Notes under the pieces: model-generated
Database searches by the model: none
What the model was told of the DNA's origin: nothing
Seen by the model: the letters and a program-made list of their open reading frames with translations, nothing else
Source of the DNA: a virus
Length of the DNA stretch: 43,255 nucleotides
IMG/VR virus record: IMGVR_UViG_3300036791_001309
Span: 1-43,255 of that record
Strand: one strand, 5' to 3'
Made by a program: the position numbers and the translations under genes
In this document: positions 20,696 to 37,128 of the stretch, piece by piece
How the letters are laid out: every line of letters starts with the position of its first letter
Position numbering within the stretch: the first letter of the stretch is position 1

Positions 20696-20995
20696 TCATG
20701 ACTTGCGTCGTCGCGTCTTTGGCGACCCGAAGATGTCCGGACGAATCTGCTGCGGCGTCTTCTCCAGCATCGGCGCCAGCTTGAGCACGTAGTGCGCCGG
20801 CACCCGCTTCCAGGCCGAGACATACTGCCGGGTCACCCCGAGGTGCCGGGCGATCACGGCGGAATATCCCGCCCTGGAAAAGATGTCTCGCATCACCTTG
20901 TCCCGCGTGGTCTTTTTGATGCGTGGCAGATACTTGCTGATCATAAGATCGGGGCTATCCTTGCGGGCCGTAGCCCCGTTTGTCTGTGGACGCAT
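20696..20995 (-). CDS. Cro/YdaS-like repressor
   Basis: A 99-residue protein. Residues 50-75 (AVIARHLGVTRQYVSAWKRVPAHYV) and the ending IRPDIFG are typical of YdaS/Cro-type phage regulators (HTH that recognises half-sites as a dimer). ATG 20995 follows AAAGGA with good spacing; ATG 21040 has no ribosome binding site. Located at the edge of the array and transcribed towards 20.7 kb. A repressor acting on sites nearby is likely; which sites is unknown. Confidence 0.72.
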   Translation of the reverse strand: MRPQTNGATARKDSPDLMISKYLPRIKKTTRDKVMRDIFSRAGYSAVIARHLGVTRQYVSAWKRVPAHYVLKLAPMLEKTPQQIRPDIFGSPKTRRRKS

Positions 20996-21036
20996 TGTCA
21001 ATTTCCTTTGTCTTAACCGGGGTTTTTCCTTGCCGG

Positions 21037-21048
21037 ACATATATATGT
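21037..21048. promoter_or_regulatory. Operator-like palindrome upstream of the repressor
   Basis: ACATATATATGT is a perfect 12-bp palindrome 42 bases upstream of the repressor start. A - strand promoter can be drawn over it (TTGCCT as -35, TATATG as -10). It could be an autoregulatory operator; inferred. Confidence 0.45.
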
Positions 21049-21095
21049 TTACATTCGCGCAGGCAACTGGCAATAAAGGCTGAGCCACGTATGTC

Positions 21096-21303
21096 GAGTG
21101 AACCAATGCGTGAGAGCGAGCCATCGTCCCTGAGTGAACCATAAGGCTTGAGCGAGCCAAATGGCCCGAGTGAACCGAGGGATAGGAGCGAGCCGAACGA
21201 ACTGAGTGAATCAAAACGACCGAGCGAGCCACATCTCGCGAGTGAACCAAAATCTTAGAGCGAGCCATTGTCCCAGAGTGAACCAAAAGACGCGAGCGAG
21301 CCA
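21096..21303. repeat. Alternating 18-bp array, block 1 (12 units)
   Basis: Units of a 10-bp core plus 8 variable bases. The core alternates between GAGTGAACCA and GAGCGAGCCA. The period is exactly 18 bp for 12 units, with a degenerate unit (GGCTGAGCCA) at 21078. A cluster of non-repeat sequence carrying a mini-gene follows. No protein-coding or RNA gene explains it; see findings. Confidence 0.93.
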
Positions 21304-21327
21304 ACTCCACCAGACAGGAGCTATTAC

Positions 21328-21471
21328 GTGATCATGGACAATTCTGACAACTATCCAATTGCGGTGTATCTAACGATGCAAGAAGCTGGGGAGAATTTTC
21401 TGTCGAACACTAGGATAGTGCCAGTCCATATGTGGAATAGGAGCGAACCATCAAGGAGGAGTGAACCATAA
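21328..21471 (+). CDS. Mini-gene embedded in the array
   Basis: A 47-residue protein from GTG 21328, seven bases after GGAG (or ATG 21334). Non-repeat sequence encodes NYPIAVYLTMQEAGENFLSN, then the frame runs into array units (RSEPSRRSEP) and stops in the first TAA of a spacer. The end is thus made of array sequence. A real small gene seems likely because the non-repeat insert matches its length closely; function unknown. Confidence 0.5.
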   Translation: MIMDNSDNYPIAVYLTMQEAGENFLSNTRIVPVHMWNRSEPSRRSEP

Positions 21472-22896
21472 GCGGAGAGCGAGCCAGTCGCAGAGAGTGA
21501 ACCAAAACCAAGGAGCAAGCCATACTACTTGAGTGAACCAGTACGTCAGAGCGAGCCATTGGATCAGAGTGAACCAGGACACGAAAGCGAGCCAATGATG
21601 GTTGAGAGAACCAGAGCATAAGAGCGAGCCATCTAAGGTGAGTGAACCAAGGTTAACGAGCGAGCCAACCGTCCGGAGTGAACCAAACCGACAGAGCGGG
21701 CCATCCGATTAGAGTGAACCAAACCGACAGAGCGAGCCATAACTACCAGAGTGAACCATGATCCGTGAGCGAGCCATCCACATCGAGTGAACCAGACCTG
21801 AAGAGCGAGCCAAAAACCCCGAGTGAACCATGTGGCGGGAGCGAGCCGTTCCGCCGGAGTGAACCATGGAGTGTGAGCGAGCCAACTCATCGGAGTGAAC
21901 CAAGATGCCGGAGCGAGCCAAACTCATCGAGTGAACCTTAACAGTAGAGCGAGCCAAGTTCTGAGAGTGAACCATATTATGAGAGCGAGCCATCGTCTGT
22001 GAGTGAGCCATACAAAGAGAGCGAGCCATGGGTCCTGAGTGAACCAGACAAATTGAGCGAGCCAAGCTGTGTGAGTGAACCACTTTGTGGGAGCGAGCCA
22101 ACGCCTGCGAGTGAACCAACTGAGAAGAGCGAGCCAGAATATTTGAGTGAACCAACACATCGGAGCGAGCCAGTATCGGTAAGTGAACCACACGTTCGGA
22201 GCGAGCCATTTCACCCGAGTGAACCAAAGGACCCGAGCGAGCCACCGCATGAGAGTGAACCAATGAGTGATGAGCGAGCCATGCGATGTGAGTGAACCAC
22301 GTTGATAGAGCGAGCCTAGACTGTTGAGAGAACCACAATAATAGAGCGAGCCATTCGTCGTGAGCGAACCAAAATCAACGAGCGAGCCACCAGATTGGAG
22401 TGAACCACACAGCTAGAGCGAGCCATAGATTAGGAGTGAACCAAAGAGTTTGAGCGAGTCATCGTGTTTGAGTGAACCAGATCATCCGAGCGAGCCTGGG
22501 TAACGGAGTGAACCAGACTTGAGGAGCGAGCCAGCTGCGACGAGTGAACCAAAGATTGCGAGCGAGCCATATCTCTGGAGCGAGCCAAAATCAGAGAGCG
22601 AGCCAGTTAGTCAGAGTGAACCAAAAGAAAGGAGCGAGCCATCATCCCTGAGTGAACCATGGAGTACGAGCGAGCCAATCTCTATGAGTGAACCAATCTC
22701 TTTGAGCGAGCCATGCGATGTGAGTGAACCAAATGAATTGAGCGAGCCATGTACCGTGAGTGAACCAAGAGTAGAGAGCGAGCCACGGTCAAGAAGTGAA
22801 CCACACTAAGCGAGCAAGCCATACCCAAAGAGTGAGCCAAAACTACTGAGCGAGCCATAGGACAGGAGTGAACCATCATATGGGAGCGAGTGAACC
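21441..22896. repeat. Alternating 18-bp array, block 2 (about 81 units)
   Basis: The main block. The first unit is GAGCGAACCA, the last is a shortened fusion GAGCGAGTGAACCA that runs into an ATG. Period 18 bp except two 9-base spacers (near 21595 and 22261). Alternation is broken only in a few places (for example three GAGCGAGCCA in a row near 22560-22605), and hybrid cores such as GAGTGAGCCA occur. Spacers look random in sequence. About one in six spacers has an in-frame stop for the SEP reading, so it is unlikely to be coding. Confidence 0.93.
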
Positions 22897-23064
22897 ATGG
22901 ACCGAACGGATGAACAGTCACGTATCAGAGCTGCACGGGAACGCGCGGTGATAGCCGAAGCACAAAAACAAGATCGTTGCGTAACCTACATTGACGATGA
23001 CGGGTGTGAAATCACTGTCACGCCAAGCGGGCATACGTTCTACAACGCAGCTGATTGGTGGTGA
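22897..23064 (+). CDS. Mini-gene embedded in the array
   Basis: A 55-residue protein read from ATG 22897, which sits directly on the end of a repeat unit (GAGTGAACC then ATG). Sequence MDRTDEQSRIRAARERAVIA then CVTYIDDDGCEITVTPSGHTFY. The helical start with repeated R/A/E and the compact strand region resemble small phage regulatory proteins; no family recognised. The stop TGA is followed at once by the next array block (AAGCGAGCCA). Confidence 0.6.
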   Translation: MDRTDEQSRIRAARERAVIAEAQKQDRCVTYIDDDGCEITVTPSGHTFYNAADWW

Positions 23065-23066
23065 TG

Positions 23067-23618
23067 AAGCGAGCCAGATTGCCCGAGTGAACCAATAGAT
23101 GCGAGCGAGCCACCACCATTGAGTGAACTAGAGATAACGAGCGAGCCGTGAGATGTGAGTGAACCACCTGAATAGAGCGAGCCACGCCTATCGAGTGAAC
23201 CAGACACGAAGAGCGAGCCATAGGACGCGAGTGAACCAAAAGAGTGAGAGCGAGTCATTTGACGGCGAGTGAACCAAAGATCGCGAACGAGCCAAAACCA
23301 AGGAGTGAACCAGACAGTAGGAGCTAGCCAAATCAGCCGAGTGAACCGTTACGTCAGAGCGAGCCAAATGATCAGAGTGAACCATATGGAACGAGCGAGC
23401 CATAAGCTGAGAGTGAACCAGATGAATTGAGCGAGCCGCTGTCAATGAGTGAGCCATGCCATTGGAGCGAGCCAACTCAATTGAGAGAACCAAAGTTGGT
23501 GAGCGAGCCGTTGTCCCAGAGTGAACCATGGAACGAGAGCGAGCCATCTCGTATGTGTGAGCCAAACTGCGGGAGCGAGCCACCCGATCCGAGTGAACCA
23601 AACCAAACGAGCGGAGAA
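23067..23618. repeat. Alternating 18-bp array, block 3 (about 31 units)
   Basis: Third block, same units and period as the others, with two 9-base spacers (around 23240-23265). The final unit is GAGCGGAGAA, one change from the core that creates GGAG; six bases later comes the ATG of the next gene. The array therefore ends as that gene's ribosome binding site. Some 8-mers (TTGTCCCA, AAACCAAG) recur in blocks 1 and 2. Confidence 0.93.
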
Positions 23619-23623
23619 CTGCA

Positions 23624-24508
23624 ATGAGTGCGTCAGTCAATCCACCAATCAATCCAATCGAGCAGTTACAGAAGCTGCACAAGGATTTACGCGCAGCGGC
23701 GGTAACCTTGACCGAGACCGAAGCTCGGTTCCTTGTAGATCACTACTACATCATGCAGGATGATCGTAAGCGAGCACACAACCAAGTCCTCGCCCTCGAT
23801 GCGGACAAGGAGCCGCACGAGGTCGTGGGCTGGCTGGCCGGCAACAGCCGTGTGCTTGAGAATGAAATCAAGAAGGTTCTGGAAACTTATGCATCCTCCA
23901 AACGCATCGGTGTGTGGATGCAGAGCATCGTCGGCATCGGACCGGTGATTTCTGCCGGCATGTTGGCTCACATCGACATCGATATATGTCGGACTGCCGG
24001 GCAAATCTGGCGCTTTGCCGGCTATGACCCGACAGTAAAATGGGAGGCTAAGACCAAGCGCCCTTGGAATGCCAAGCTCAAGACGCTGTGCTGGAAGACC
24101 GGACAATCGTTCATGAAATTCTCCGGCAATCCGGACTGCTTGTACGGGCACCTGTACAAGGACCGTAAAGTCTACGAGGTGGCGCGCAATGACAGAGGAG
24201 ATAATGCTGAAAGGGCGGCCCGTATTCTCAAAGAAAAGAACTTTGATAAGACTACCGAAGCCTACAAGCATCTGACCGCAGGACACTTGCCGCCTGCGCA
24301 AGTTGATGCTCAAGCAAGACGATGGGCGGTCAAGATGTTTCTGTCGCATCTGCAGATTTGCTGGTGGTACGACACCAAGGGTGAGCCACCTCCTGCTCCC
24401 TATGTCATCGGGATTAAGGGACACATTGATTTCGTACCGCCGCCAAACCTGGAGATGTTTCCTGGTTTGTCAGAAGCACTGAACCAGCAAAGGAACACCA
24501 ACTCATGA
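23624..24508 (+). CDS. IS110-like (Transposase_20) domain protein, stand-alone
   Basis: A 294-residue protein. Residues 95-150 (MQSIVGIGPVISAGMLAHIDI ... WRFAGYDPTVKW) fit the C-terminal Transposase_20 helix-hairpin-helix domain of IS110/IS116/IS902 recombinases. The N-terminal DEDD nuclease domain is missing, and the Gln-Ser-Gly catalytic Ser motif expected after the helix-hairpin-helix is not seen. No IS ends are visible. Similar phage proteins of this length exist, so it is probably a domesticated DNA-binding relative, not an active transposase. Its ribosome binding site is the last array unit. Confidence 0.75.
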   Translation: MSASVNPPINPIEQLQKLHKDLRAAAVTLTETEARFLVDHYYIMQDDRKRAHNQVLALDADKEPHEVVGWLAGNSRVLENEIKKVLETYASSKRIGVWMQSIVGIGPVISAGMLAHIDIDICRTAGQIWRFAGYDPTVKWEAKTKRPWNAKLKTLCWKTGQSFMKFSGNPDCLYGHLYKDRKVYEVARNDRGDNAERAARILKEKNFDKTTEAYKHLTAGHLPPAQVDAQARRWAVKMFLSHLQICWWYDTKGEPPPAPYVIGIKGHIDFVPPPNLEMFPGLSEALNQQRNTNS

Positions 24509-28314: not shown

Positions 28315-29046
28315 TTACGCCTTGGGTCCACCCTCTGCCGGTGGCACAGCAATCGGATGCTCAGGCTGAGGCTGTCCAGTTGTCGGTACGTCCACAAGGA
28401 ACCAAACATAACCGATTCCAGGGACCACGACACAGACTAGATACTTGACCCCGCCAGGACCAGACACGCCAGGAATGTAGATTGGATGCGACGGAGTCAG
28501 TCCATTTCCAGCCTCGGGAGGCTGTTCACCAGGAGGAATCGGAATATAGATCGGCGGCATCGCGACCGGAGGCCAACCCGGGCTCGGTTGCGGTCCTGGA
28601 GGAGTGGCGTCAACCCATGGCGGAGCAACACCTCCCCAGAAGCCTGGAGGATTGCCTGGACCCTGACCAGGAGGATTCGGCCAGACGCTTGGAGGAATCG
28701 GATGCGATGGATATGGCGGTGGACCACCCGGTGCGATCGGTGGCATCACCCACGGCGGCAATGAGCCAGGACCACCAGAGATGCTTCCTGGAGGCTGACC
28801 CGGATAGTAGATCGGTGGCATCGGCCAACCACCCACGCCATACCCTGGATCGACTGGTCGATTGGGACCTCCCGGAGCAATCGGATGCGTAGGCCATCCC
28901 GGCACGCCGTACCCTGGATCGACTGGTCGATTGGGGCCTCCCGGAGCGATCGGATGCGCAGGCCACCCAGGCACTCCGAATCCTGGATCGACTGGACCAC
29001 CACCTGGACCATCGAGCATGATGATATAAGCGAGAGAGCCTCTCAT
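28315..29046 (-). CDS. Pro/Gly-repeat structural-like protein
   Basis: A 243-residue protein dominated by Pro and Gly, with a repeat of about 24 residues (RPVDPGYGVPGWPTHPIAPGGPN), at least two near-perfect copies and a third, weaker one, at residues 15-75. The C-terminal 45 residues (KYLVCVVVPGIGYVWFLVDV) form a small non-repeat domain. GGAGG lies eight bases before ATG. It could be a fibre-like or envelope-interacting protein; no family recognised. Last gene before the late terminator. Confidence 0.6.
   Translation of the reverse strand: MRGSLAYIIMLDGPGGGPVDPGFGVPGWPAHPIAPGGPNRPVDPGYGVPGWPTHPIAPGGPNRPVDPGYGVGGWPMPPIYYPGQPPGSISGGPGSLPPWVMPPIAPGGPPPYPSHPIPPSVWPNPPGQGPGNPPGFWGGVAPPWVDATPPGPQPSPGWPPVAMPPIYIPIPPGEQPPEAGNGLTPSHPIYIPGVSGPGGVKYLVCVVVPGIGYVWFLVDVPTTGQPQPEHPIAVPPAEGGPKA
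28850..29000 (-). repeat. 72-bp tandem repeat in the Pro/Gly gene
   Basis: The block GGATCGACTGGTCGATTGGG plus following bases (CCTCCCGGAGCAATCGGATGCG) occurs twice with few changes (about 28850-28920 and 28915-28985). A third partial copy of the GGATCGACTGG segment is near 28985. In-frame unit length keeps the protein repeat intact. Confidence 0.75.

Positions 29047-33409: not shown

Positions 33410-37128
<3,719 letters not shown>

Follow-up and report, generated by a model that had tools for sequence, protein, structure and literature searches.

We find that a long array of short alternating repeats in a phage genome, together with the adjoining gene, is almost certainly a TIGR array with its Tas protein, TasA. 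The layout itself is already known: TIGR-Tas systems, with their dual-repeat arrays, were first described in 2025 by Faure et al. (PMC12045711), and the present locus is a new, unusually long TIGR-TasA member. The first-pass annotation of this DNA had seen the array as highly ordered and probably functional, and we judge this to be right; it knew of no described family with such a layout, which is that of the TIGR arrays. The anatomy of the array, the homology and fold of the Tas protein and the pairwise inheritance of spacers are established here. Phage-borne TIGR-TasA arrays, this one included, are probably guide banks for phage-against-phage interference, exchanged between arrays as 36-bp cassettes of paired 8-nt spacers and silencing early genes of rival phages without cutting.

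The array comprises 61 units of two alternating repeats

The window is the whole stretch of DNA analysed, 43,255 nucleotides of IMG/VR record IMGVR_UViG_3300036791_001309. Scanning it for the 10-mers GAGCGAGCCA and GAGTGAACCA with at most two mismatches, we found 125 repeats at 21078-23613. They fall into three blocks of 13, 81 and 31 repeats by position (Table 1); this count includes the degenerate repeat at the start and the truncated ones at the end, and it bears out the earlier description of about 125 alternating 18-bp units in three blocks. The end of the array had been set at 23618, while the last repeat ends at 23613, with ten bases between it and the start codon of the gene that follows. 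The strongest periodicity lag in the array is 36, and the unit is laid out as 10+8+10+8 bp, that is, two alternating 10-bp repeats with spacers of mostly 8 bp, giving 6, 40 and 15 units in the successive blocks. The repeats follow one another at 18 bp throughout except for five steps of 19, and we counted five 9-base spacers (three in block 2 and two in block 3) instead of the four reported before. The rest of the window holds a single stray exact core, at 36146, and a chance origin of the array is thereby excluded.

Table 1 Features of the array region, in window coordinates
Feature	Position	Strand	Remarks
Divergent YdaS/Cro-like repressor gene	20696..20995	-	HTH part of the listed reading frame 20696-21310
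TIGR array block 1	21078..21303	+	13 repeats, 6 units; from the repeat scan
Short reading frame, 45 aa	21334..21471	+	Between blocks 1 and 2; overlaps the first block 2 repeats
TIGR array block 2	21441..22890	+	40 units; truncated edge repeat at its end (22884)
Short reading frame, 55 aa	22897..23064	+	Between blocks 2 and 3; ATG inside the last GAGTGAACCATGG
TIGR array block 3	23067..23613	+	15 units; truncated edge repeat GAGCG at 23609-23613 ends the block
tasA, 294-aa Nop-domain Tas protein	23624..24508	+	Annotated 'transposase' phrog_4285, IS110 C-terminal-like

A repeat of the GAGCGAGCCA type stands both first and last in all three blocks, the outer ones being truncated (at 21078, 22884 and 23609). 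We therefore call GAGCGAGCCA the edge repeat and GAGTGAACCA the loop repeat. Both have GAG...CCA ends resembling box D and box C, with AG instead of UG in box D. The spacers are almost all distinct: 59 of the 61 in the A position (after the edge repeat) and 60 of the 61 in the B position (after the loop repeat). The first-pass annotation was correct about two alternating 10-mers, whereas the alternation is less free of error than it had claimed, being broken at 22578, where the loop repeat reads as an edge repeat, and blurred by a few repeats intermediate between the two types. Each plus-strand frame of block 2 contains 25-39 stops, and this excludes a translated gene, a possibility that had been raised earlier.

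About a quarter of the repeats are off consensus (18/61 edges, 16/61 loops). This, together with the loop repeat turned into an edge repeat, might suggest a decayed or passive array that no longer works. However, the deviations are mostly single substitutions, the spacing is constant over 125 repeats, and the adjoining tasA is intact with the invariant residues of its family; we consider decay very improbable.

The gap of about 80 bp between the repressor gene and the array is likely a shared promoter region; a promoter scan of the plus strand found nothing. The two short reading frames beside block 2 are not conserved and have no homologue among the fetched loci. The window phage is of the contractile-tail kind, with genes for tail sheath, tape measure, endolysin, DNA polymerase, helicase, primase and exonuclease; the closest named tail sheath is that of Microcystis phage Mae-JY30 (46%). 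Elsewhere in the window, a 69-bp tandem repeat (2.5 copies, 87% matches) lies at 28823-28995, and GGCGCA occurs about 11 times at 34149-34212, within a 1239-aa tape-measure-like gene.

The adjoining gene encodes a nuclease-free Tas protein

Searching the sequences of solved structures with the window protein, we recovered TasR (9mty, E 7.4e-11) and TasH (1.5e-5). A profile of nine relatives strengthened these matches to 1.8e-21 and 6.3e-11, and added IS621 at 3.5e-4. We found no structure of TasA itself among the solved ones. A predicted model (mean pLDDT 82.9) matched the folds of TasH (Z 19.4 over 218 residues), TasR (Z 17.6) and IS621 (8wt6, Z 12.8), and more weakly that of Nop5 of the box C/D RNPs (Z 7.2). 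The Nop fold starts at about residue 28, the homology to TasR begins past the RuvC part of TasR, and the 294 residues contain no HNH or RuvC nuclease domain. A fold that begins so early, with no nuclease before it, identifies the protein as TasA. The first-pass annotation had spoken of two adjacent DNA-binding proteins; one of them is indeed the divergent repressor-like protein, while the other is the RNA-guided TasA.

We also considered an IS110 transposase, in keeping with the automatic annotation, and rejected it, since neither the sequence nor the model has the N-terminal DEDD RuvC-like domain. The match to Transposase_20 is weak (E 0.00097, below the Pfam cut-off, residues 100-146). IS110/IS621 elements with their bridge RNA do resemble the window locus in having a Nop-like RNA-binding domain and two short guides that pair with both strands. 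Unlike them, the window has no DEDD domain and no sign of a recombinase, and a long array takes the place of the single bridge RNA.

The locus shares its features with published TIGR-Tas systems

TIGR arrays have alternating repeats of 8-12 nt, spacers of about 9 nt (8 nt in SpTIGR) and 36-nt units, with truncated edge repeats at both ends, and they accompany Nop-domain Tas proteins that are mostly phage-borne (PMC12045711). The tigRNA is processed to 36 nt, and a Tas dimer sits on one tigRNA (PMC12045711). The window array has the alternating short repeats, the 36-nt unit, the truncated ends and the adjacent Nop-domain Tas protein, as well as the box C/box D-like pairing ends in both repeats. 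It differs from a typical TIGR locus in lying upstream of tasA and in showing, in a scan of the plus strand, no terminator-like site behind the array; a rho-independent terminator is typical there, though never stated as a requirement (PMC12045711). At 61 units it is also far longer than the most frequent reported size of 5-15 units (PMC12045711), and the other arrays that we examined are long as well.

The TIGR system of Salicola phage CGphi29 (SpTIGR-TasH), which has been shown experimentally (PMC12045711), is similar to the window locus in its 36-bp units, 10-bp repeats and 8-bp spacers, its Nop-domain Tas protein and its carriage by a tailed phage. In record HQ634153 (L401) its 36-bp array has the edge AAGCGAGCCA and the loop AAGACAACCA, and this edge is nearly the same as the window edge. 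In contrast to the window protein, TasH carries an HNH nuclease, and in CGphi29 a short array sits on the downstream side of the gene. Nuclease-free TasA systems such as FpTIGR-TasA share with the window the Nop domain alone beside a dual-repeat array, although the FpTIGR spacers are 9 nt long (PMC12045711).

The earlier annotation had set the array apart from CRISPR, and we concur: a CRISPR array has a single repeat of about 25-36 nt and similarly long spacers, whereas this one has two 10-bp repeats and 8-bp spacers. CRISPR-Cas likewise uses a spacer array as guides, and its non-cutting effectors, especially those of type IV and V-M, have been proposed to silence rival elements, as we propose here. 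The window, unlike CRISPR-Cas, has paired 8-bp spacers, two repeats and no Cas protein. A literature search for the same layout under other names found nothing.

Spacers are inherited as pairs

TasA homologues taken from IMG/VR gave 83 loci, the window and its 82 nearest. Automatic extraction recovered an alternating 18/36-bp array in 74 of them, and most of the others also have a 36-bp periodic array next to them; about nine in ten related genes in IMG/VR have such arrays. Repeat pairs vary by clade (GAACGAGTCA/GAGAGAACCA, GAGCGAGCCA/GAGAGCACCA, GATTGAAACA/GAGAGCACCA and others), yet 22 of the 26 distinct repeat consensuses are pair-compatible at positions 3 and 8, in G-C, A-T and T-A versions. 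That this pairing is kept across clades is expected from the box D-box C pair in the TasR structure. Two loci, L119 and L157, have consensus repeats of 11-12 bp, compared with 10 bp in most other related arrays. The window and L075 have no spacer in common, their TasA proteins being 83% identical.

Further pattern scans brought the set to 357 non-redundant repeat chains with 5,745 spacers. Related arrays gain and lose spacers internally in twos. An edge spacer that recurs retains its downstream loop spacer and differs in its upstream neighbour in 245 comparisons, against 3 of the reverse, and a recurring loop spacer shows the same pairing asymmetry (244 versus 2), the comparisons not being mutually independent. 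The overwhelming asymmetry is consistent with the 36-nt tigRNA being the functional unit; from the sequence comparisons, the unit that moves between arrays is the edge-A-loop-B pair. Some pairs recur swapped in other arrays, with four unordered pairs at one mismatch and four at two (controls 0 and at most 1), as in AGAAGCCC/TATCACGA and TATCACGA/GGAAGCCC. An exchange of this kind can be neutral only when the two spacers read a single site head to head.

The regular 18-bp spacing, and the ParB-like genes sometimes linked to TasA loci (PMC12045711), would suit an array that acts as DNA: a partition (centromere), repressor-titration or packaging site bound by TasA or the repressor, as the first-pass annotation had guessed. 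However, the adjoining gene encodes a Tas protein and not ParB. Spacers that a DNA-site model would leave free to vary are kept as specific pairs, these pairs recur swapped, and the spacers of relatives match foreign phage genes; such a site is therefore extremely improbable. Variable spacers that are kept and moved as pairs, next to a Tas protein, point to guide RNAs instead.

In loci L166, L167, L171 and L184, the guide family TACCAACC/GTGTATGC and its variants differ solely at every third base, and on the opposite strand three of these four variants code for VYAVG, which looks as though the guides tracked silent changes in a coding target. Over all guide families, codon-wobble is not claimed, as there was no clear excess (two differences, 19/58 against 29% expected; three differences, 9/64 against 7%).

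Related arrays carry guides that match another phage family in its early region

According to its discoverers, genuine targets of TIGR spacers are difficult to identify, the role of the nuclease-free TasA is unclear and the growth of arrays is an enigma (PMC12045711). From their cleavage rule we derived a target that reads spacer A and then the reverse complement of spacer B. For the recurrent pair AGAAGCCC/TATCACGA this site is TAYCACGAGGGCTTCY, and scanning IMG/VR for it we found 32 loci, 11 of them from one phage family. The early region of this family of Sak4/DUF669/PrimPol phages encodes a serine recombinase, a sigma-like protein, an AAA_24/Sak4-like ATPase, DUF669, a PD-(D/E)XK nuclease, a helicase and a primase. 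More members were fetched via the ATPase protein, independently of the guides.

Guides outside the scan match this family exactly (TAAGAACC/TTCTTGAA and GCCAGGCT/AAGTACAC), and others do so with one mismatch. In the GAACGAGTCA clade, with the scan guides excluded, 6 of 459 units match at least five family loci at no more than one mismatch, whereas 30 shuffles produced 0.13 such units on average and never more than 1. The excess is seen only for A plus the reverse complement of B with gap 0; with other geometries and gaps the number was 0-1. On 125 kb of target-family contigs, the clade, here with the scan guides taken in, has 10 exact and 25 one-mismatch matches compared with 0 and 1 when shuffled, most of them in the 1 kb or so that precedes the Sak4-like gene on its upstream side. 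Against 381 kb of Tas phages, units of the same clade match no more often than shuffled pairs.

Array phages and target phages occur together in four metagenomes. One of these, 3300037508, has a guide with a full 16/16 match at L333:7196, a variant outside the scan pattern; the best matches in the others have one mismatch (two metagenomes) or two (the fourth), and the control for this comparison gave one 2-mismatch match. Matches of related guides to this early region were noted for the array loci L165, L174, L188 and L106 and the target loci L333, L329, L339 and L351. The target ATPase gene is missing from fifteen Tas-phage records, as is TasA from fifteen target records, though records may be fragments. 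For related arrays, whose TasA proteins are about 57-62% identical over the matched part, the target geometry and the targeting of foreign phages are supported by these matches, which concern one target family. These matches hint that phages may use such arrays against each other. The evidence on pair inheritance and on natural targets appears to go beyond published TIGR-Tas accounts.

In L524, the guides GGAAGCCT/TACCACGA and AGTACCAC/AAGCCTTT match, in opposite orientations, sites that almost coincide, being offset by two bases (9785 and 9787). Such a doubly targeted site is possibly a hot spot for guide capture.

The guides of the window and their proposed action

None of the 61 window units has a target in the window genome at up to one mismatch, and the 2-mismatch matches are at control level. 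The flanks of tas loci contain no target for these units; in the target family of the related arrays one unit matches at one mismatch, which is the chance level, and 3.5 Mb of fetched loci gave 4 one-mismatch matches against about 3 per control rotation.

Faure et al. suggested regulation or aid to integrases as roles of TIGR systems (PMC12045711), and the guides might accordingly be directed at the genome of the phage that carries them, or at the host, in regulation or in integration and lysogeny, and not on rival phages. The array does lie in a regulatory position between a repressor-like gene and tasA, and with no target found for the window guides a host target is compatible. Against this reading, the window units lack self targets as given above, 146 units of eight related phages have no match at up to two mismatches in the examined parts of their own contigs (control 6), and guides of relatives match another phage family. 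We consider it unlikely, though less so than a DNA site or a decayed array.

For the window array, we lean towards a role against rival phages. The array would be transcribed rightward, divergently from the repressor and probably together with tasA, and its transcript would be cut into about 61 tigRNAs of 36 nt, each consisting of half an edge GAGCGAGCCA, spacer A (8 nt), the loop GAGTGAACCA, spacer B (8 nt) and half an edge. A TasA dimer may bind each tigRNA via the box D/box C-like ends of both repeats and be led to a 16-bp DNA site made up of spacer A and, immediately after it, the reverse complement of B, with the two spacers pairing to opposite DNA strands. TasR bends DNA by nearly 180 degrees, and TasA binds 36-nt RNA (PMC12045711). 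The nuclease-free window TasA would bind and bend DNA, blocking transcription or replication without cutting. Its likely use is to silence the early genes of phages competing with it inside one cell, an aim that we extend to the window array from its relatives.

If true, the phage-against-phage reading answers the discoverers' question of what natural TIGR spacers target, and the natural-target evidence in the relatives is the valuable part of the present findings. The comparison offers three testable facts, namely that the A-B pair moves, that the site is A plus the reverse complement of B without a gap, and that guides in related arrays are directed against the early region of a co-sampled phage family; it also names concrete phage pairs for experiment.

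The site of window unit 22272 was scanned as well and occurs in 102 loci in many unrelated genes, with no second guide above control. A pair of matches in a Sak4 gene was set aside, as it belongs to an actinobacterial phage group and is probably due to chance. Unit 22272 resembles units 22704 and 23139: these three window guides, noted together with L228, have a near-identical spacer A and a related spacer B, and the three look like variants of one coding site.
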